Shown here: positions 4,424 to 13,211 of the stretch, piece by piece
Position numbering within the stretch: the first letter of the stretch is position 1
Layout: each line of letters begins with the position of its first letter
Assembly: GCF_016902415.1 (NCBI RefSeq)
Contig: NZ_JACJLV010000005.1
Span: 1-64,000 of the forward strand
DNA length: 64,000 nt
From: Mordavella massiliensis
GTDB lineage: Bacteria > Bacillota > Clostridia > Lachnospirales > Lachnospiraceae
Direction: 5' to 3'
Notes under the pieces: generated by a model
Told to the model about the DNA's origin: nothing
Seen by the model: only the letters and a program-made list of their open reading frames with translations
The model's database searches: none
Program-made: the position numbers and the translations under genes

Positions 4424-4440
4424 AAAACATGGAGGGAAGC

Positions 4441-4965
4441 ATGGATATAAGAATTCTGATTCCAATAATAATGGCCGTGTTACTGCTTAGCTGGGTTATA
4501 TTCTGCGGGATTCAATTCATACGTCACAGTAAGGACGTGATCGTCCGTTCTGATTTTACAGGACATGTAAAGTGTGAAAAATGCGGTACTGAATATACGG
4601 TGAATGCTGCGGAATTTACGAAATCCGCCATGGCAAAATCTGTAAGTGTAACAAAAACAAAGTTTGTAAACGGGGCATTGATCAATCAGCCTCATTATAA
4701 ATACTATGCAAAGAAATTTTATTGTCCGGTTTGCGGAAAACGCAGATACGCCAGGGTTTTAAATATCAATGACATCAACCAGGCTATGAAAAAGCCGATG
4801 CTGCAAAGCGGCATACGATGGCTGATACTCATGATGACCGGCGGATTACTGATCCTTGCAGCGACCGGAATTCCGATGTATTTTGCTAATAAAGCTGCAG
4901 CACGTCAGGTGGAAGATTTAAAACAGCAGCAATATGAAGATTTTTTAGAAGATTATGTGGAGTAA
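4441..4965 (+). CDS. membrane-anchored zinc-ribbon protein
   Basis: A 174-residue membrane protein. An N-terminal transmembrane helix (residues ~4-26) is followed by two CxxC knuckles, VKCEKCGTEY and FYCPVCGKRRYARV, which together can form one zinc ribbon, then a second membrane helix near residues 122-145 and a charged C-terminal tail. An upstream in-frame ATG at 4429 is rejected because GGAGGG between the two ATGs is the natural ribosome binding site for 4441. It is followed after 12 bp by a DUF89 gene and probably belongs to the same transcript. Function unknown. Confidence 0.7.
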   Translation: MDIRILIPIIMAVLLLSWVIFCGIQFIRHSKDVIVRSDFTGHVKCEKCGTEYTVNAAEFTKSAMAKSVSVTKTKFVNGALINQPHYKYYAKKFYCPVCGKRRYARVLNINDINQAMKKPMLQSGIRWLILMMTGGLLILAATGIPMYFANKAAARQVEDLKQQQYEDFLEDYVE

Positions 4966-4977
4966 GAGGGCAATCAG

Positions 4978-5862
4978 ATGAGAATGAATCCGTTTTGCCT
5001 GACCTGTCTGATCCAGAGTCAGGAACTGCAGATCAGGAATTTTGAAGATGAAGAAAAGAAACTCCGATATATGAAAGAAATCCTTGGATATCTGTCTGCC
5101 AGCGATCCGGACGCTTCGGCCCCGGCCCTGGTGAAGTCCATTTCCAGAATATATGAAAACTACTGGGGAAAGAAAGACAGCATGGAAGAGGCCAAAAAAG
5201 AATTCAACGATTTTCTTTTGTCGATGGAAAAGGATCTGGAAGCGCAGATCCGGACACATACCGATCCTGTGGAGGCTGCGCTTTGTTTTGCAAGAACCGG
5301 GAATTATATTGACTATTCTGCAGTGAAGGATGTGTCCAGGGAGAAATTACTGGAATTATTTGAAGAGCAGGAAAAGGACGGGCTAGATCAGACGGAGTAC
5401 GCATATTTCAGACAAGAACTCACACATGCGTCGACACTGGTCTATCTTGCTGACAATTGTGGAGAGATTGTCCTGGATAAAATCGCGATCAGGATCATCA
5501 AAGAACAGTTCCCACATCTGAATATTACTGTCATTGTACGCGGGGCTCCTGTTGTCAATGATGTAGATCTGGACGCCGCTTATTATGTGGGTCTGGATAA
5601 AACTGCTTCGGTTATAGATAACGGAAGCGAGATCGCGGGAACGGTGCTTTCTGATATCAGTCCTGCCGCCCGTGGAGAACTGGAAAATGCCGATCTGATC
5701 ATTGCAAAAGGACAGGGTAATTTTGAGACGCTTCACGGCTGCGGACTTAATATCTATTATCTATTCTTATGCAAATGCGATTGGTTTATGAGACGCTTTG
5801 CGGCGGAACGGTTTCAGGGAATGTTGATCAACGAAAATCGGATACCTGCTGAACGGCAGTAA
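4978..5862 (+). CDS. DUF89/ARMT1-like metal-dependent phosphatase
   Basis: A 294-residue member of the DUF89 family, which contains metal-dependent damage-control phosphatases that act on sugar or nucleotide-type phosphoesters. Supporting blocks are the N-terminal CLTCLIQSQ pair (Cys7, Cys10), TGNYIDY near residue 107, the metal-binding LADNCGEIVLDK at ~157-168, and AKGQGNFETL at ~243. The last three match the order expected for the fold, including the Asp-Asn and Asn-Phe-Glu metal or phosphate ligands. The gene starts 12 bp after the zinc-ribbon gene and ends before a strong terminator, making it the last gene of the group. The physiological substrate is unknown. Confidence 0.85.
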   Translation: MRMNPFCLTCLIQSQELQIRNFEDEEKKLRYMKEILGYLSASDPDASAPALVKSISRIYENYWGKKDSMEEAKKEFNDFLLSMEKDLEAQIRTHTDPVEAALCFARTGNYIDYSAVKDVSREKLLELFEEQEKDGLDQTEYAYFRQELTHASTLVYLADNCGEIVLDKIAIRIIKEQFPHLNITVIVRGAPVVNDVDLDAAYYVGLDKTASVIDNGSEIAGTVLSDISPAARGELENADLIIAKGQGNFETLHGCGLNIYYLFLCKCDWFMRRFAAERFQGMLINENRIPAERQ

Positions 5863-5913
5863 ACGTATGTGGGATTTACAAAGTCAGAAGTTTATAAGAT
5901 GTGCAAAAAGTGA

Positions 5914-5948
5914 GGCGCTGTATCTATAACAGATACAGCGCCTTTACT
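5914..5948 (+). terminator. rho-independent terminator after DUF89 gene
   Basis: A perfect 12-bp inverted repeat (GGCGCTGTATCT at 5914-5925 and its complement at 5931-5942) with a 5-nt loop, followed by a TTTACTTGTATTTT tract. It separates the upstream genes from the sigI operon. Confidence 0.9.
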
Positions 5949-6018
5949 TGTATTTTACATAACCTTTACACAGTTTTGCTGGTTTTAGATGTAAATTATA
6001 AGTAAAATAAATTTGATT

Positions 6019-6053
6019 CTTACCCTGTTTTTCTGAAATGATATCCGTATTCT
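6019..6053 (+). promoter_or_regulatory. candidate sigma-I promoter of sigI-rsgI
   Basis: TACCCTG at 6021-6027 and CCGTATTC from 6045 give a -35-like CCC(T) and a -10-like CGTA separated by 19 nt. Sigma-I promoters in Bacillus and Clostridium thermocellum are known for a CCCC-type -35 and a CGWA-type -10. The whole block recurs before the lipoprotein gene at 7500 with the same spacing, which supports autoregulation by the sigI product. The start codon lies 26 nt past the CGTA. Confidence 0.75.
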
Positions 6054-6075
6054 ATATATGAGGAGGACTTAGGTC

Positions 6076-6804
6076 ATGCAAAGCGAGAATCAGATTGTAA
6101 AAATGGTCTATGACGCAAAAGAAGATCTGCAAAAGGCAGACAATCTGATCCGTACCTATATCCCCTTCATTCGATCTGAAGTGTCAAAATGTATTTCCCG
6201 ACTATGTACAGAACAAGACGATGAATTCAGCATCGCCATGATGGCCTTCCATGAAGCCATTATGGGATATGAGAAAAAAAGAGGAGCATTTTTGAATTAT
6301 GCGGCTTTATTGATTCGAAGCCGAATCGTTGATTTTCAAAGAAAAGAAGCCCGGCATCAGAACCATGTTTCTATTTATGAAGAAAGTGGAACTGAAGGTC
6401 GTTTGATCATTGATGAAATCACGGATGAACATGATTATTTTGAGGAGACGGCTTCCAGAGACGCCACAAAACAGGAAATCGAAGAGCTGGCCCTTGTTAT
6501 GGCAGAATTTGGGATTTCTTTTTCTGATGTAGCAGACAATTGCCCAAGGCAGGAACGGACAATAAAAGCCTGTTCTGCAGCCATTTCCTTTGCAGCAGAA
6601 AAACAGGAACTGCTGGATGAATTGTTAAGAACAAAAAAACTTCCTCTTGCCAGACTTGCTTCCGGCTCTGGAACAGAGCGGAAAACACTGGAACGTCACC
6701 GGAAATACATATTGGCAATGCTCTTGATCTACACAAATGGATATGAAATCATACGCGGACATTTGAAGCGCATCCTGAAAAGGGAAGGGGGGATGTCGGC
6801 ATGA
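6076..6804 (+). CDS. sigI: RNA polymerase sigma-I factor
   Basis: A 242-residue alternative sigma factor of the SigI family, close to the usual 240-250 residues. The region-2-like segment around residues 67-95 (GYEKKRGAFLNYAALLIRSR, then IVDFQRKEARHQNH) binds core polymerase and the -10 element; the C-terminal helix-rich part (LARLASGSGTERKTLERHRK) is the SigI-specific DNA-binding region. It has an AGGAGG ribosome binding site, overlaps rsgI by 4 bp (ATGA), and is preceded by a promoter of the type it is expected to read. In characterised systems SigI is held at the membrane by RsgI and released on an extracellular signal (heat in Bacillus, polysaccharides in C. thermocellum). Here the downstream genes suggest an envelope regulon. 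Confidence 0.9.
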   Translation: MQSENQIVKMVYDAKEDLQKADNLIRTYIPFIRSEVSKCISRLCTEQDDEFSIAMMAFHEAIMGYEKKRGAFLNYAALLIRSRIVDFQRKEARHQNHVSIYEESGTEGRLIIDEITDEHDYFEETASRDATKQEIEELALVMAEFGISFSDVADNCPRQERTIKACSAAISFAAEKQELLDELLRTKKLPLARLASGSGTERKTLERHRKYILAMLLIYTNGYEIIRGHLKRILKREGGMSA

Positions 6805-7484
6805 AATATATGGTCATGGAATGTCATCCGGGATATGCGGTGGTCCTGTCTGACGATGGAAATTTTCTGAAGGTTGCAAATATGCATTATGAAGTGGGGC
6901 AAACTGTTGCGGATGTGATTGAAATGCAGTATCCACTTCCAGAAAAGAAGAAAAAGAGCAGATGGATTTACACTATTGCAGCCACAGCAGCCTGCCTTGC
7001 ATTGATCATAACTTCTGTATTCCGAATGGGACACGGTACAGCCTATGCGTCTGTCTATATGCGGATTAATCCGGAGGTCAGGATTGATGTGACAAGAGAT
7101 GATCTTGTGGTAGGATTGGATGGTGTAAATGAAGATGGGGAGAAACTGGCAGATAACTACAATTTTACTGAAAAGAAACTAGATCAGGTAATGGATGAAT
7201 TAGTCGACAAAGCGGCAGATCAAGGATATCTACAGGAAGGCGGACGTATTTCCCTGACTCTGGATGCCGACGACGATGAATGGGTAGTATCACACAGTGC
7301 ATCCCTGAAAGATCACCTGAATCACCACCTTGAGGAACGAATGTCGGTTACCATTGAAGTAACAAACGATAGTTACAAAGACAATAAAGTAACGATACCC
7401 GTTTATCCAGATGCCAGTGGCTACGGAGATGATGGTGACAGCGGCTATGGTGAATCCGGATACGGCAACAGCGAATATGATTAA
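6801..7484 (+). CDS. rsgI: anti-sigma-I factor RsgI with Tyr/Gly-rich tail
   Basis: A 227-residue membrane anti-sigma factor. Residues 1-50 form the RsgI N-terminal sigma-binding domain (VMECHPGYAVVLSDDGNFL), followed by Lys-rich KKKKSRW, one transmembrane helix (~55-74) and an extracellular domain that starts AYASVYMRINPEV. Asn90-Pro91 is the motif at which RsgI proteins are reported to autocleave before regulated intramembrane proteolysis. After a ~100-residue domain the protein ends in a Gly/Tyr/Ser/Asp-rich tail (SGYGDDGDSGYGESGYG). Unlike C. thermocellum RsgI proteins it carries no carbohydrate-binding or enzyme module. It is translationally coupled to sigI (ATGA overlap). Confidence 0.88.
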   Translation: MKYMVMECHPGYAVVLSDDGNFLKVANMHYEVGQTVADVIEMQYPLPEKKKKSRWIYTIAATAACLALIITSVFRMGHGTAYASVYMRINPEVRIDVTRDDLVVGLDGVNEDGEKLADNYNFTEKKLDQVMDELVDKAADQGYLQEGGRISLTLDADDDEWVVSHSASLKDHLNHHLEERMSVTIEVTNDSYKDNKVTIPVYPDASGYGDDGDSGYGESGYGNSEYD

Positions 7485-7496
7485 AAAATATTTTTC

Positions 7497-7531
7497 CTTA
7501 CCCCGTTTTGGAAATGTCAGTTCCGTATTCT
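7497..7531 (+). promoter_or_regulatory. second candidate sigma-I promoter, before RsgI-like lipoprotein
   Basis: CCCC at 7501-7504 and CGTA at 7524-7527 are separated by 19 nt, exactly as in the block at 6023-6049. Flanking bases are shared too (CTTACCCyGTTTT, GAAATG, TCCGTATTCTAT, TATGA). An A/T tract precedes it. It would make the lipoprotein and the VTC-DUF4956-CotH genes a SigI-driven transcript separate from sigI-rsgI. Confidence 0.75.
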
Positions 7532-7606
7532 ATGTATGAAAGGCAAAAAAGGAACGCCTGAAAAATAATCTGCAGATAAATACACAGTCTGAAAGGAGAA
7601 TGAATT

Positions 7607-8275
7607 ATGAAAAAGAAATCTATGTTAGCACTGGTATTAGCAATGACAATGAGCACAGGTCTTCTGTTTGGATGTGGACAGAACAGTACAGAAGCAACTG
7701 TAACTGAGACCGTGGAGGAAACTTCCGCAGAACCCCAACCTGCCGGCGGGACACTGGTATTAAGTGTAAATCCGGAAATAGAGATTAACTATGATGAAAA
7801 CGGAAATGTAACGGAAATTTCCGGACGCAATGATGATGGAAATGCAATTCTTGCAAATTATTCCGGATATGAGGGCAAAGCAGCCCGCGAGGTTGTAACG
7901 GAACTGGTAACAGCAATCGGAGAAGCGGGTTATTTTGTCGAGGAGGTTGAGGGCGAAAACCGTCAGATCACCATTGAGATCGAGCCTGGTTCAGGTCTTC
8001 CTCATGAAACTTTTTTAGATGAAGTTGCATCTGATGTTCATGAATGTGTAAGCGCCAACAACTGGCAGAGTCCTGTAGATCTTCGTGGAGAGAGCGACTA
8101 TGGAATGAGCGATTACCAGGACACGGATTATGGTCCGGAAAACGATGGAGTTACAGATTACGGGGATGGACAGTCTAACTATGATGAAGGACAGTCTAAT
8201 TATGATGACGGGCAGTCTAACTACGACGACGGGCAGACCAACTATGACGATGGACAGTCCGACTATGATAACTAA
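7607..8275 (+). CDS. RsgI-paralogous lipoprotein with heptapeptide-repeat tail
   Basis: A 222-residue lipoprotein: signal peptide with a lipobox ending LLFGC23, then an acidic Thr/Glu linker, then a domain clearly related to the extracellular domain of the neighbouring RsgI. Shared are VLSVNPEIEINY (Asn55-Pro56, against INPEVRID in RsgI), a GxNxDG-type turn, LANY and an (E/D)LV...GY helix. The cytoplasmic anti-sigma domain and transmembrane helix are absent. The tail is rich in Tyr, Asp, Ser and Gly and ends in five heptads of type DGQSNYD. The ribosome binding site is AAAGGAGAATGAATT. Lipid-anchored outside the cell, it could compete with or modulate RsgI, or be a scaffold or substrate for the CotH kinase. 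Both roles are inference; I know of no characterised homologue. Confidence 0.7.
   Translation: MKKKSMLALVLAMTMSTGLLFGCGQNSTEATVTETVEETSAEPQPAGGTLVLSVNPEIEINYDENGNVTEISGRNDDGNAILANYSGYEGKAAREVVTELVTAIGEAGYFVEEVEGENRQITIEIEPGSGLPHETFLDEVASDVHECVSANNWQSPVDLRGESDYGMSDYQDTDYGPENDGVTDYGDGQSNYDEGQSNYDDGQSNYDDGQTNYDDGQSDYDN
8165..8269 (+). repeat. five tandem 21-bp repeats coding DGQSNYD-type heptads
   Basis: Five consecutive 21-bp units encode D/E-GQ-S/T-N/D-YD. Units differ at synonymous and a few replacement positions, so the array is somewhat diverged and not a fresh duplication. It forms the C-terminal tail of the lipoprotein. The start codon of the next gene lies inside the last unit in another frame. 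Confidence 0.9.
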
Positions 8276-8957
8276 GAATCCGGTAAAACTCCGGCATGAA
8301 CTGAAGCAATTAATCAATCCACAAGATGATTTAATACTGTCATCAAGGCTTAGGAAGTTGTTTCCACATGACAAACATTCCTGCTCACGCGGAACATACC
8401 GTGTGAGCAGCCTTTACTTTGACACACCGGATGATAAAGCATTGCGACAAAAACTGGACGGAGTAAACTTAAGAGAAAAATTTCGCATCAGATATTACGG
8501 AACAGATACTTCGTTTATCCGGTTGGAAAAAAAGTGGAAGATCAATGGTCTGTGTGGTAAATCAAGTGCCCGTATAACCAGCACGCAGGTGCAGGATCTT
8601 CTGGAAGGGAATTACCGGTTTTTACTTGTATCAAACGATCCCCTTCAGATAGAATTCTACAGCAAGATCAAAGGACAGTTGCTTTGCCCTAAGACAATCG
8701 TTGTATATGAAAGAGAAGCCTTCTCTTACTTACCTGGAAATGTCCGCATTACCATAGACAGAGATCTTAGAAGCAGTATGGGAAAACACGACTTTTTAAA
8801 TCCGGATGCATACCGTATCCCTGTTTCAGACTCCTTTTCCGTACTGGAGATCAAGTATGATGAGTACCTGCCGGATATTGTCCGGATGGCAGTTCAGTGT
8901 GAAAACAGGCGGACAACGGCTTTCTCTAAATATATGGTATGCCGAAGATACGATTAG
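8265..8957 (+). CDS. VTC-domain (polyphosphate polymerase-like) protein
   Basis: A 230-residue VTC-domain protein, the fold that in yeast Vtc4 makes polyphosphate from ATP inside a basic tunnel. Conserved blocks in order are LRHELKQLI near the N-terminus, YRVSSLYFDTP, REKFRIRYYG, RLEKKWKINGLCGKSS, VVYEREAF, VRITIDRDLRSS and LEIKYDEYLPD, supplying the basic and acidic tunnel residues. I place the start at ATG 8265, overlapping the previous stop by 11 bp; longer in-frame starts would only read the preceding gene's repeats in the wrong frame. It sits directly before DUF4956 and CotH genes, a recurrent neighbourhood in bacteria. Polymerase activity is inferred from family. Confidence 0.85.
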   Translation: MITKNPVKLRHELKQLINPQDDLILSSRLRKLFPHDKHSCSRGTYRVSSLYFDTPDDKALRQKLDGVNLREKFRIRYYGTDTSFIRLEKKWKINGLCGKSSARITSTQVQDLLEGNYRFLLVSNDPLQIEFYSKIKGQLLCPKTIVVYEREAFSYLPGNVRITIDRDLRSSMGKHDFLNPDAYRIPVSDSFSVLEIKYDEYLPDIVRMAVQCENRRTTAFSKYMVCRRYD

Positions 8958-8987
8958 ACAAACGGTACGGGAACAAGGAGAAGAATT

Positions 8988-9665
8988 ATGACATTTCAAT
9001 TTCAGGATATTTTTAAATCAAGTTTTCTGGAAAATTCAGCCTCAATTCATCCGATGGATATGATATTGGCGCTGGCGCTTTCATTTTTACTTGGCTTATT
9101 TATCTTTTTTATTTATAAAAAATGTTATGCCGGCGTTATGTACTCGGCAAGTTTTGGGGTAACACTGATCGCATTATGTATGATTACGGCGCTTCTGATT
9201 CTTGCAGTGACATCCAATATCGTGCTTTCTCTTGGTATGGTAGGCGCACTTTCAATTGTCCGGTTTCGCACAGCAATTAAAGACCCGTCAGACATTGCCT
9301 TCCTGTTCTGGGCAATCGCAGCAGGGATCGTTCTTGCGGCAGGTTTTCTTTTGCTTGCAGTGTTTGGAAGTGTTTTCATCGGTATAATTCTTATTATTTT
9401 TGCCGGCTATAAAGGATATGACAGACCGTATATCCTGGTCCTTCACTGCGAAAACCAGGACACTGAAAAAGAAGCCTGCGACTTTTTGGCTAAGAATGTA
9501 CAGAAAATATCATTAAAGAGCAAAAGCTTATCACGGGGCTGTATTGAACTAAACTATGAGATTCGCCTGAAAGATGCCAATACTGATTTTATCAACGAAT
9601 TATCCGGGTTTCCCGGTATCATGCAAGCAGTAATGGTTTCGTATAATGGCGATTATATGAATTGA
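8988..9665 (+). CDS. DUF4956 integral membrane protein
   Basis: A 225-residue membrane protein with about four hydrophobic helices between residues 22 and 145 and a soluble C-terminal domain (~150-225). The signature LGMVGALSIVRFRTAIKDPS followed by FLFWAIAAGI identifies DUF4956. The family is uncharacterised but very often encoded beside VTC-domain proteins, where it may be the membrane partner for polyphosphate or another anionic product. The ribosome binding site is AAGGAGAAGAATT. It starts 30 bp after the VTC gene and ends 4 bp before the CotH gene. Confidence 0.87.
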   Translation: MTFQFQDIFKSSFLENSASIHPMDMILALALSFLLGLFIFFIYKKCYAGVMYSASFGVTLIALCMITALLILAVTSNIVLSLGMVGALSIVRFRTAIKDPSDIAFLFWAIAAGIVLAAGFLLLAVFGSVFIGIILIIFAGYKGYDRPYILVLHCENQDTEKEACDFLAKNVQKISLKSKSLSRGCIELNYEIRLKDANTDFINELSGFPGIMQAVMVSYNGDYMN

Positions 9666-9669
9666 ACAT

Positions 9670-11064
9670 ATGCTGAAACATAAATATATTGATGCCATCT
9701 GCATCACAGGAATAATACTTGCTGTTCTTGGAACCATTTTATTTATAAACGGCGAGCAATGGGGGCTGCAAAAAGCCTCCTCAAAACCCGGCTATGTGTC
9801 GCGCCTGTTCGATAAAACAAAAGTACATCAGATTGACATTCATATGGATGATTGGAAAGGTTTTCTTGCAAATGCACACAAGGAAGAATACACCTCCTGT
9901 ACAGTAGTGATTGATGGTGAGATTTTTCATGATGTGGGAATTCGGGCAAAGGGGAATAATTCTCTGCGTCTGACAGAGAAGTATGGGCATGAACGATACA
10001 GTCTGAAACTGGAATTTGACCATTTTAAAGCTAACAGTTATTACGGATTAGATAAATTATGTCTGGATGCGTCCTTTCAGGATAACAGTTATCTGAAGAC
10101 CTGGATCACCTATGATATGATGGAACATATGAAGATTCCAACTCCTTTGTGCAGTTATGTGTGGGTCAGAGCCGGCGGAGAAGACTGGGGGCTTTTCCTG
10201 GCTGTGGAGGAACCAGAGGAAGCATTTGTCCGTCGTAATTTCGGAAAAGATCATGGTCAGCTTTATAAACCGGACTATAAATCTCTGGAGGATCCCAATC
10301 ATGATGTCTATCTTCAGTATACCGATGATTATGAGGATAGTTATGATAATATTTTCCGTAATGCTAAATTCGAGCCTGATACGGCAGATAAAAAAAGACT
10401 CATTCAGGCATTGAAAATCCTGGCATCTGGAGAGAATTTAGAAACGGCGGTTCATGTAGACGAAGTATTGCGTTATTTTACCGTCCAGGTTTTTGTAGTA
10501 AATCTGGACAGTTATCTTGGTAAAACCGGTCATAACTATTTTTTATATGAAGAAGATGGAATATTGCAAATAATACCCTGGGATTATAATTTAGCTTTCG
10601 CCACATATTCTCTGGGAATGCCTGAACCTATTAATGACTCCAGACTGTATGTTAATTATCCTATTAACACACCGGCATCAGGCGAGATTATGAAAAACAG
10701 GCCCCTCTATCATAATCTGATGAAAAGCCGAGAATATTATGCTCAATATCACATCTATTTTAATCAGCTGGTCGCAGAGTATTTTGAAAGCGGCCATTTT
10801 GAAAAATTTGTATCTGAAACACGAAATATGATCGAACCATACGTAAAAAAAGATCCGACGGCCTTTTGCACCTATGAAGAATATGTGGCAGGAGCAGAGA
10901 CCATCACCGATTTCTGTCTACTGCGCGCACAAAGTGTGCGCGGACAGCTTGACGGGACGATTCCATCCACAATTTCCGGACAAATGAAAGATCAAGATAG
11001 TTTTGTGGATGCATCTTCCGTATGGCTTCCGGATATGGGAGAGATAGCAGACTTGAAAGAATAA
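9670..11064 (+). CDS. CotH-family kinase, membrane-anchored
   Basis: A 464-residue CotH-type atypical kinase with an N-terminal membrane helix (~9-27) that places the kinase outside the membrane. Family motifs visible are DIHMDDWKGFL, VGIRAKGNNSLR (~residue 97), the VEEPEEAFVRRNFG block after DWGLFLAVEE, YFTVQVFVVNLDSYLGK, and the metal-binding IIPWDYNLAF near residue 300. Bacillus CotH phosphorylates serines of spore-coat proteins; related proteins also occur in fungi. There is no strong ribosome binding site and only 4 bp from the DUF4956 stop, so coupled translation is likely. The Ser/Tyr-rich lipoprotein and RsgI tails of the same locus are possible substrates, which is inference. Confidence 0.85.
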   Translation: MLKHKYIDAICITGIILAVLGTILFINGEQWGLQKASSKPGYVSRLFDKTKVHQIDIHMDDWKGFLANAHKEEYTSCTVVIDGEIFHDVGIRAKGNNSLRLTEKYGHERYSLKLEFDHFKANSYYGLDKLCLDASFQDNSYLKTWITYDMMEHMKIPTPLCSYVWVRAGGEDWGLFLAVEEPEEAFVRRNFGKDHGQLYKPDYKSLEDPNHDVYLQYTDDYEDSYDNIFRNAKFEPDTADKKRLIQALKILASGENLETAVHVDEVLRYFTVQVFVVNLDSYLGKTGHNYFLYEEDGILQIIPWDYNLAFATYSLGMPEPINDSRLYVNYPINTPASGEIMKNRPLYHNLMKSREYYAQYHIYFNQLVAEYFESGHFEKFVSETRNMIEPYVKKDPTAFCTYEEYVAGAETITDFCLLRAQSVRGQLDGTIPSTISGQMKDQDSFVDASSVWLPDMGEIADLKE

Positions 11065-11068
11065 TCGA

Positions 11069-11090
11069 AAAAAGAAAATATTCTTTTTCT
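11069..11090 (+). terminator. weak AT-rich terminator-like hairpin after cotH-like gene
   Basis: AAAAAGAA (11069-11076) pairs with TTCTTTTT (11081-11088) across an AATA loop. It is an 8-bp, mostly A-U stem ending in a U-run, weak but placed directly after the last gene of the SigI locus. Confidence 0.4.
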
Positions 11091-11156
11091 CAGTGTGTAA
11101 GTGTGGTACAATGAAAAGCGATGAAACCGAGATTCTTACATGCGGAGATCGATTAT

Positions 11157-13211
11157 ATGAAAAATGAACAGGGAAGGACAGAAACCCTTGAATTTATTCA
11201 AGATGTAACTGAAAAAATAAAAAACAAACTAAAGGAAATTGATCAGTCCCTTTTGGCTGGACAGAAAGATATTGAACGCATGCACGATTATTACTGGGAA
11301 AATTATACAGAAATGGACCAGTATGGTTACGAGGATTATGACAATCAGCAGGCGTTATTGAACCAGACAAACGCAAATCAGGAATTGATCCGCAGAAAAT
11401 GGAGATTTCAAAAGATGTTGGAATCTCCGTTTTTCGGGCGGGTCGATTTTTGTTATAAAAATGAATCTTCAGCAGAACAATTTTACATCGGCGTTGGCAA
11501 TTTTGCAGAAAAAACGGGCGGAACGCCTCTCATCTATGACTGGAGGGCGCCGGTCTGCGAATTGTTTTATGATTACGACAGCGGCCCGGCTTCTTATCAG
11601 GCTCCGGCCGGCACCATGGAAGGAGAGATCCTGTCCAAATGGCAGTATAAGATCCGCAGAGGAAAACTGGTCTATGCTTTTGAAAGTGATACCAAAATTG
11701 ATGACGAGATCTTAAAACAGGAACTGGGAAGCAACAGTGACGTAAAGCTGAAGAATATCGTACGCACCATCCAGAAGGAGCAGAATGCCATTATCCGCAA
11801 TACAAAGGATAAGATCCTTGTGATCCAGGGCGCAGCCGGAAGTGGCAAGACTTCGGTCGCCCTCCACCGGATCGCGTATCTTCTGTATCACGACCGCGGG
11901 AATCTGAAATCGTCGGATATTCTGATCCTGTCCCCGGGCAGTGTGTTTGCAGATTATATTTCTCATATCCTGCCGGAACTTGGCGAAGAAACCGTGCAGG
12001 AGATGAGTTTTGACCTCTTTGTCTACCGAGAACTTAAAGATGTGGCTCCTGACTGCGAAGACCGGTATCATCAGCTGGAGCGTCTGATGAAGTTCCCGGA
12101 TCCGGAAGCTTATGAAAGATATCTGAATAAACAGTCAGAATGGATGTCCGGACAGATGGAAGGATTTCTTGCCACACTGGAGGACAGCCTGATGGATTTC
12201 CGGGATCTGACATGGAACGGGCTTCATAAAACCGAACAGGAACTGATCCATCTGTTTTATTTTCGTTTTCAGAATGTGCCGCTGCTTGCGCGCATGAATG
12301 CTGTAATGGAATATGTGGTAGATGAATACGAGACTCTGAAAGGAAGAGAACTGTCTGAAGAAGAGTCCGAATATCTCCGGCAGAAATTTGACAGCATGTA
12401 TGTGACAAAAGATATCTATCAGATATACAGCCGGTTTCTGGAAAGCTGCGGATGGCAGCCTCTGCCGGACATCCCTTATGAACGCAGGCTGGTGGAGTAT
12501 GAGGACGCGGCGCCCATGCTGTATCTGAAATACCGGCTTCTGGGAAAAGGTTCCCACAAAAGGATCAAGCATCTGGTAATTGATGAGATGCAGGATTACT
12601 CCTATATCCAGTATCTGATCCTGGCAGAGTTGTTTTCCTGCAGTATGACGATCCTGGGAGACAAATATCAGACACTGGATGAAGAGATGCGGGACGTGAC
12701 TGCTTTTTTGCCCCGGATCTTTGGAAGTCATGTGAAAAAGATATCCATGAATAAAAGTTACCGTAACACAGTGGAGATTGCAGCCTATGCGGCAGGACTT
12801 TTGTCCCCGGGGGAAAAAGAAGCAGCCGAATATCTGGAACGGCACGGGAAGCCGGTGGACGAAGAAACCTTTCTGACCATCGACGAGATGCTGGATACAC
12901 TCTGCGGAAAACTTCGGATACAGGGGGAGAACAGTTTTGAGACAGCCGCTCTTCTGACGATGACTGAAGCAGAGGCTTATGATCTTTATCAGCTACTGAA
13001 GAACAAAGGACAGCCGGTTTCTTATATTGACAGGGACAGCAGCACTTTTCATCCCGGTCTGTCCGTAACCACCTTTTATCTGGCAAAAGGACTGGAATTC
13101 GACCAGGTGTTTATGGTAAGTGAGGACAGCAGCAATCCGTTCCTGCCCCGGGCTCGATATATCAGCGCCACAAGGGCGCTTCATGAACTCTATATGTATA
13201 AGATTCTGTAA
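11157..13211 (+). CDS. HelD-like superfamily 1 helicase/RNA polymerase recycling factor
   Basis: A protein of about 684 residues with the UvrD/Rep-type ATPase core of HelD proteins, which bind RNA polymerase and release stalled complexes using ATP. An N-terminal coiled-coil (residues 1-75, charged and Gln-rich) matches the HelD arm that enters the secondary channel. Walker A is IQGAAGSGKTSVALHR (~residue 225); a DEMQDYSYIQ motif II and a GDKYQTLD motif III follow, with motif VI-like SATRALHELY at the end. I prefer ATG 11157 (CGGAG 9 nt upstream) over ATG 11121, which has no ribosome binding site. It is somewhat shorter than B. subtilis HelD (774). It stands alone downstream of the SigI locus. 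Confidence 0.85.
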   Translation: MKNEQGRTETLEFIQDVTEKIKNKLKEIDQSLLAGQKDIERMHDYYWENYTEMDQYGYEDYDNQQALLNQTNANQELIRRKWRFQKMLESPFFGRVDFCYKNESSAEQFYIGVGNFAEKTGGTPLIYDWRAPVCELFYDYDSGPASYQAPAGTMEGEILSKWQYKIRRGKLVYAFESDTKIDDEILKQELGSNSDVKLKNIVRTIQKEQNAIIRNTKDKILVIQGAAGSGKTSVALHRIAYLLYHDRGNLKSSDILILSPGSVFADYISHILPELGEETVQEMSFDLFVYRELKDVAPDCEDRYHQLERLMKFPDPEAYERYLNKQSEWMSGQMEGFLATLEDSLMDFRDLTWNGLHKTEQELIHLFYFRFQNVPLLARMNAVMEYVVDEYETLKGRELSEEESEYLRQKFDSMYVTKDIYQIYSRFLESCGWQPLPDIPYERRLVEYEDAAPMLYLKYRLLGKGSHKRIKHLVIDEMQDYSYIQYLILAELFSCSMTILGDKYQTLDEEMRDVTAFLPRIFGSHVKKISMNKSYRNTVEIAAYAAGLLSPGEKEAAEYLERHGKPVDEETFLTIDEMLDTLCGKLRIQGENSFETAALLTMTEAEAYDLYQLLKNKGQPVSYIDRDSSTFHPGLSVTTFYLAKGLEFDQVFMVSEDSSNPFLPRARYISATRALHELYMYKIL

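Follow-up and report, generated by a model that had tools for sequence, protein, structure and literature searches.

The sigma factor and anti-sigma factor pairs known as SigI-RsgI, the CotH kinases and the VTC-domain proteins are all known families, and among the closest described relatives of the locus analysed here are the SigI-RsgI systems of two species, Bacillus subtilis and Clostridium thermocellum. The locus lies at 6076-11064 in the first 64,000 nucleotides of contig NZ_JACJLV010000005.1 of Mordavella massiliensis (the whole stretch analysed, hereafter the window), and its six genes, namely sigI, rsgI, a gene for an RsgI-like lipoprotein, genes for a VTC-domain protein and a DUF4956 membrane protein, and cotH, all lie on the forward (+) strand, as the initial annotation had described. 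According to the published accounts (PMC10575876, PMC6056542, PMC4711584 and PMC12203970), the two known systems have in common with the locus the sigma factor, the RsgI_N-membrane-RsgI_M architecture, the Asn-Pro site and a promoter with an AT-tract and CGWA before sigI itself. The locus differs in its output, which is a lipoprotein-VTC-DUF4956-cotH operon, and in the presence of a second RsgI_M protein, the lipoprotein. In C. thermocellum, SigI6 turns on the cseP promoter, and cseP codes for a CotH-dockerin protein (PMC4711584), so that SigI control of a CotH-domain gene already has a precedent; the CotH described here has a membrane helix where the cseP product has a dockerin. As for the earlier claim that the system was undescribed, searches of the open-licence full text in PMC, assessed by listings and excerpts, yielded nothing joining VTC, DUF4956 and CotH with SigI, and nothing describing the tail code reported below.

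The CotH-CotB/CotG module of the Bacillus spore coat (PMC7821199) shares with the locus both catalytic Asp residues and, as proposed substrates, repeat-rich, likely disordered tails encoded nearby, but its repeats are of Ser-Lys-Arg, whereas those found here are acidic and of the form [ST]xY (Ser or Thr, any residue, Tyr), and sigma-I control and linkage to VTC and DUF4956 are particular to the locus. Unlike spore-coat CotH, the CotH studied here probably sits at the membrane, facing outwards. A group of cotH, polyphosphate polymerase, DUF4956 and DUF4832 genes adjoins Gram-positive Pel operons (PMC7112168) and has cotH, VTC and DUF4956 in common with the locus, which departs from it in that Pfam found neither DUF4832 nor pel genes among the nine genes at 4429-13211, and in having a sigma-I promoter and a lipoprotein with tail repeats. 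In VTC-DUF4956-Cthe_2159 clusters, which were seen here in the same family, the VTC-DUF4956 pair likewise adjoins a gene whose product is of secreted type, but the partner is Cthe_2159 and not CotH, and no [ST]xY tail was found nearby. Among ten large genes tested beside or near VTC-DUF4956 pairs away from SigI, nine were Cthe_2159 (PF14262; L141, L143, L145-L149, L151 and L152) and one (L150) was CotH, and the secreted partner of the pair thus seems to vary.

Judging from sequence, we consider it probable that in this locus SigI turns on expression of CotH, a surface kinase that in turn modifies tails on the anti-sigma factor RsgI and on a companion lipoprotein, together with a VTC-DUF4956 polyphosphate branch. 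Part of the evidence for this reading is a link between the tails and CotH that, as read from the sequences, is a new finding; the substrate side was absent from the initial annotation. The C-terminal ends of RsgI and the lipoprotein, which should both lie outside the membrane, are acidic repeats, and in loci with cotH they carry Ser/Thr-x-Tyr in forms such as DSGYD, SNYDDGQ and DTDYGPNNDGVTDYN, while among the tails listed those without cotH are mostly Asp-rich and lack it. By motif count, the window has four motifs in the RsgI tail (7413-7481, +) and nine in the lipoprotein tail (8087-8272, +), the proposed main substrate of CotH. Among 77 decidable loci with a SigI of the same clade, 56 have VTC, DUF4956 and cotH, five have cotH but neither VTC nor DUF4956, and 16 have none of the three. 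The tail rule was formed on 62 of these loci and then tried on the 15 others, where it held: the number of motifs per locus was 10 to 42 in 53/53 loci with cotH in comparison to 0 to 1 in 9/9 without it for the first set, and at least 13 in 8/8 in comparison to 0 to 1 in 7/7 for the new loci. Pooled, [ST]xY tails were present in 61/61 cotH loci, in comparison to 0 to 1 motif in 16/16 loci without cotH, and the lipoprotein alone had at least nine motifs in all 61. Ser or Thr occupied position -2 of 1303 of the 1488 tail Tyr residues in the first 53 loci (shuffle mean 257, maximum 298), in comparison to 100 of 711 Tyr residues ahead of the tails in the same loci and 2 of 64 tail Tyr residues in loci without cotH. 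As a control, 0/50 tails from other RsgI groups, a set in which a few genes are present twice, reached 4 motifs per 100 residues, the maximum being 2.35.

On a SigI tree of 76 rows, whose bootstrap was not quite settled, cotH and motif agreed in 76/76 rows with 11 changes, five of them forced by starred (well-supported) branches; an earlier, smaller tree had eight changes, three of them so forced. L076, whose sigI is split in two frames, was omitted from both trees. The tails could instead be cation-binding or wall-spanning acidic repeats inherited with the operon as a cassette, with CotH modifying other surface proteins or polymers, which we regard as unlikely. Tails are acidic on average with or without cotH, the DTDYGPNNDGVTDYN repeat presumably resembles a calcium-binding loop, and in the window the start of the VTC gene overlaps the end of the tail, so that tail and operon can travel together; cassette inheritance would equally give the contrast within genome G454, where of two clade SigI loci one has cotH and motif tails (L190) and the other has neither (L198). 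What such an explanation accounts for less readily is that RsgI, encoded in the other transcription unit and with differing repeats, has at least three motifs in 56/61 cotH loci, that the tie persists through the 11 tree changes, and that the spacing between Ser/Thr and Tyr stays constant across differing repeat types. Furthermore, five cotH loci without VTC and DUF4956 (L106, L120, L192, L212 and L217) keep the motif, which argues that the motif tracks CotH. In terms of charge, the final 80 residues of the lipoprotein tails had a median of 0.30 net negative charges per residue with cotH (n=61) in comparison to 0.61 without (n=11), and two charges per motif would bring the former to 0.56; for RsgI tails the values were 0.34 (n=60) and 0.50 (n=15), with 0.47 after the same addition. 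As a consistency check, these charges fit phosphate replacing encoded Asp.

Several observations weigh against a kinase circuit marked by this motif. The starred branches give just five independent contrasts, all of them agreeing (sign test p 0.0625), and the RsgI tail has only 0 to 2 motifs in 5/61 cotH loci (L070, L087, L095, L192 and L193), and therefore RsgI is not always a target. The serines that are phosphorylated in the peptide SLKSSDYQSSK of B. subtilis CotB do not include the one at Tyr -2 (PMC7821199), and strict promoter motifs precede both sigI and the lipoprotein gene in only 33 of 61 related loci. In addition, [ST]xY tails were not found near non-SigI VTC or CotH genes, and another CotH was present elsewhere in five of the nine first-set genomes without a cotH at the SigI locus, whose tails are motif-free; with the clade CotH model those CotH proteins scored at most 23 bits or gave no match. 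The code, if real, is therefore limited to this CotH clade. The idea that [ST]xY tails accompany every CotH was rejected on 20 non-SigI VTC loci and 14 CotH/VTC regions outside SigI loci (two further regions of the latter set, L183 and L186, turned out to be SigI loci); only two frames there reached 5 motifs per 60 residues, neither of them a repeat, one internal to an 824-residue open reading frame (L138) and one of 138 residues (L181).

The sensor part of the proposed circuit begins with sigI (6076-6804, +), coding for a sigma-I factor of 242 residues which matched Sigma70_r2 above the cut-off and the SigI models with a best E of 3.7e-53, yet below their equivalog cut-offs. It overlaps rsgI (6801-7484, +) by 4 nucleotides. 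RsgI consists of RsgI_N, a membrane helix read from the sequence, RsgI_M and the tail; both domains were above the Pfam cut-off, and Pfam showed no carbohydrate-binding domain, the tail being a repeat instead. Self-cleavage is expected at Asn90-Pro91 (7068-7073, +), and with a lenient pattern Asn-Pro was present in 77/77 RsgI and 72/73 lipoproteins. The lipoprotein gene (7607-8275, +) codes for an RsgI_M domain with Asn55-Pro56 and the tail, and Cys23 would bear the lipid, judging by its lipobox-like context. In an alignment of 27 lipoproteins and five RsgI the columns of Cys23, Asn55 and Pro56 were invariant, where the Cys in the RsgI rows cannot mean a lipobox, and the lipoprotein profile matched solved RsgI outer domains.

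RsgI outer domains are known to self-cleave and must separate before RseP cuts in the membrane (PMC12203970). In the largely self-contained circuit we favour, RsgI would keep SigI at the membrane until a surface signal made the self-cleaved outer domain separate, which would free SigI to fire two promoters, its own and that of the lipoprotein-VTC-DUF4956-cotH operon. CotH, anchored at the external side of the membrane, would then modify, most likely by phosphorylation, the Ser or Thr of the [ST]-x-Tyr repeats in the tails which the lipoprotein, and usually RsgI too, extends outwards, making these tails more anionic, while VTC-DUF4956 would most likely make polyphosphate inside and pass it outwards. 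The kinase of the circuit would thereby mark both the sensor controlling it and a companion with the same sensor domain, amounting to a feedback loop, and RsgI may face competition for the signal from the lipoprotein, whose outer domain is the same. Gene content, conservation, the promoter pair, the tie between CotH and tail motif and the intact catalytic residues are seen in the sequences, whereas the topology, the phosphorylation and its site, the feedback and its sign, the signal and the polyphosphate are inferred. Such a locus ties VTC, DUF4956 and CotH outside spores, three families that are poorly understood, to a single regulator, and for a bacterial surface kinase it points to a likely substrate and to [ST]-x-Tyr as the likely recognition motif. 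If true, an anti-sigma factor with an outer tail targeted by the kinase of its own regulon would be a new way of tuning envelope signalling, and since the set is found in gut Clostridia and Erysipelotrichaceae, named isolates among them, it can be tested.

The kinase gene cotH (9670-11064, +) codes for a protein with an N-terminal membrane helix which matched PF08757 with an E of 1.9e-57 and aligned with a solved spore CotH (5jd9) across the catalytic region. The aligned catalytic residues Asp280 (10507-10509, +) and Asp305 (10582-10584, +) are intact, and they were invariant in 61/61 rows along with Lys94, Lys113, Glu115, Glu180 and Lys200. From the alignment and a numbering offset, Asp280 probably corresponds to D228 of the spore protein. 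A D228Q variant of CotH is reported to be catalytically inactive (PMC7821199). The VTC-domain gene (8265-8957, +), whose likely ATG lies within the 3' end of the lipoprotein gene, codes for a likely polyphosphate polymerase of 230 residues, based on PF09359 (E 4.3e-38), an alignment with yeast Vtc4 (E 2.6e-06) and checked basic and acidic residues that were invariant or nearly so in 56 rows; a start at 8130, given by a mechanical open reading frame, was rejected as too early. The DUF4956 gene (8988-9665, +) was assigned by Pfam, and the structure model of its product shows five long helices and an ACT-like end domain with moderate confidence (mean pLDDT 71.9). No sequence relative of it was found in the PDB and Foldseek gave nothing at E <=0.001; the ACT-like end domain, the sole part matched, resembles the C-terminal domain of MgtC among many such folds. 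VTC and DUF4956 probably make and export polyphosphate.

Another reading is that CotH attaches polyphosphate rather than single phosphates, the polymer being made and threaded by VTC-DUF4956 and the surface proteins becoming polyphosphate-coated. Such a role, which we find very unlikely, would agree with the conserved VTC residues, with the occurrence of VTC, DUF4956 and cotH together in 56/61 cotH loci and with the gap of 3 to 5 nucleotides between DUF4956 and cotH in 36 of these 56. VTC was also found elsewhere in 5/5 genomes of VTC-less cotH loci in comparison to 9/16 behind cotH-less loci, a weak leaning toward a need for VTC, weak because VTC is common anyway (112 of 150 family genomes, own genome included; RsgI_M proteins were found in 47 and CotH in 75). 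Moreover, CotH is known for transferring single phosphates, and single phosphates alone would nearly reach the charge of the Asp tails. A further version, decidedly unlikely in our view, has CotH as an extracellular kinase which uses polyphosphate, made by VTC from cytosolic ATP and exported by DUF4956, as phosphate donor where ATP is scarce, and which so charges the tails of RsgI and of a decoy lipoprotein in a feedback loop.

Sigma-I promoters are described as carrying an A-tract as part of the -35 element and CGWA within the -10, with CGTA used by SigI3 (PMC10575876; see also PMC6056542). The initial annotation had noted promoter blocks in the locus, and these proved real: pattern searches placed sigma-I-type promoters 5' of sigI (ACCC, T-tract and CGTA; 6020-6054, +) and 5' of the lipoprotein operon (7498-7532, +), the two being nearly identical (ACCC(C/T)GTTTT, a 14-nucleotide spacer and CGTATTCT). 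The pattern TTACCC-N-GTTTT-N8..14-TCCGTATTCTA had two matches in the window and none in 100 shuffles, and a slightly shorter pattern matched these two sites alone in the 2.61-Mb genome, while a looser one added two matches elsewhere in it (C118 and C123) that are near copies of each other. With its T-tract and CGTA the sigI promoter agrees with the sigma-I definition of an AT tract and CGWA (PMC10575876), although the window has TTTT where most known sigma-I promoters have an A-tract. A scan for sigma-70-type promoters gave 14 matches in comparison to a shuffle mean of 15.0.

In 61 related loci (L109, with one RsgI_M gene, was excluded), 95 of 97 strict matches stood before sigI (41/61 loci) or the lipoprotein gene (47/61), in comparison to 9 matches in total for the reversed pattern. 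In 20 whole genomes there were 32 strict matches in 19 genomes, 31 of them at the SigI locus, in comparison to one for the reversed control; the pattern used here requires ACCCC and thus detects only the second promoter of the window. The results support by comparison the single regulon that had been proposed, and a small one mostly confined to the SigI locus is favoured, in two units. A single six-gene operon was rejected in favour of two promoter-headed units sharing one promoter type, because the sigI-rsgI and lipoprotein-VTC-DUF4956-cotH units are divergent in G032 (L035) and in G717 (L210), the latter a genome of the same genus. That the promoter heads the lipoprotein unit even there speaks against the highly improbable case in which a sigma-I operon merely happens to adjoin a CotH of the spore-coat kind and a polyphosphate cluster, each with a separate job, as do the maintenance of the set across families and the fact that the CotH of the locus is the only one in its genome. 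Such a chance arrangement would fit with every part being of a known family, and with CotH, VTC and DUF4956 also standing beside Pel genes (PMC7112168).

The sole match away from the locus in the 20 genomes (G003:C21:16533-16564, -) lies before the gene of a small protein of 172 residues (L251, 7962-8480, -), of secreted type and PepSY-like by eye, which ends in an Asp-rich (D)n-RW tail; the SigI locus of G003 lacks cotH. In L193, four tandem sigma-I-type promoters spaced by 105 to 115 nucleotides (7375-7732, -; G364:C2:134374-134731) precede the lipoprotein gene.

It had been suggested that the gene order be sought in relatives, and that its absence from them would count against the idea; the order was present in dozens of loci. 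Loci with cotH occur in Lachnospiraceae, Oscillospiraceae, Erysipelotrichaceae, Anaerovoracaceae and Eubacteriaceae among others, and cultured strains of Traorella massiliensis (L086), Merdimmobilis hominis (L111) and Gemmiger formicilis (L122) are among the carriers. Since the best 80 of 456 SigI relatives from a scan of named genomes were kept by likeness to the window SigI, no prevalence follows from these loci. The first set of 86 loci, from which L053 (same SigI as the window) and the duplicates L084 and L110 had been dropped, comprised 53 with cotH (51 also with VTC and DUF4956), nine without cotH and with at least 6 kb downstream, and 24 undecided, having less than 6 kb downstream and no cotH. 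The second set of 32 loci included duplicates (L190, L195, L196, L215 and L220), ten loci of other SigI groups (L200-L209) and two that end too soon (L211 and L213, one motif each in the visible part); its 15 new decidable loci comprised eight with cotH, five of them with all three genes, and seven without, L216 with 5.0 kb downstream being scored as without. Not all loci are independent: L077 and L078, for instance, come from one genome, and L131 is a near copy of L132. In genome searches, the clade SigI was found in 21/397 family genomes, and a class-wide search gave 10/391 genomes above 350 bits, own genome included in both. Variants were also seen, with cotH relocated in L128 and an extra stretch before the lipoprotein gene in L086 and L037. 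In L126 a clade SigI is followed by VTC-like remnants in two short frames, with no RsgI_M protein found there; it is perhaps a decaying locus.

Upstream of the locus, a gene for an ARMT1-like damage-control phosphatase (4978-5862) lies beyond a terminator-like hairpin (5912-5944, +) which separates it from sigI, and helD is the downstream neighbour. An Rfam scan of 5500-11500 matched no family. A second terminator-like hairpin, of 12 pairs, occurs within the VTC coding sequence at 8381-8410 (+).

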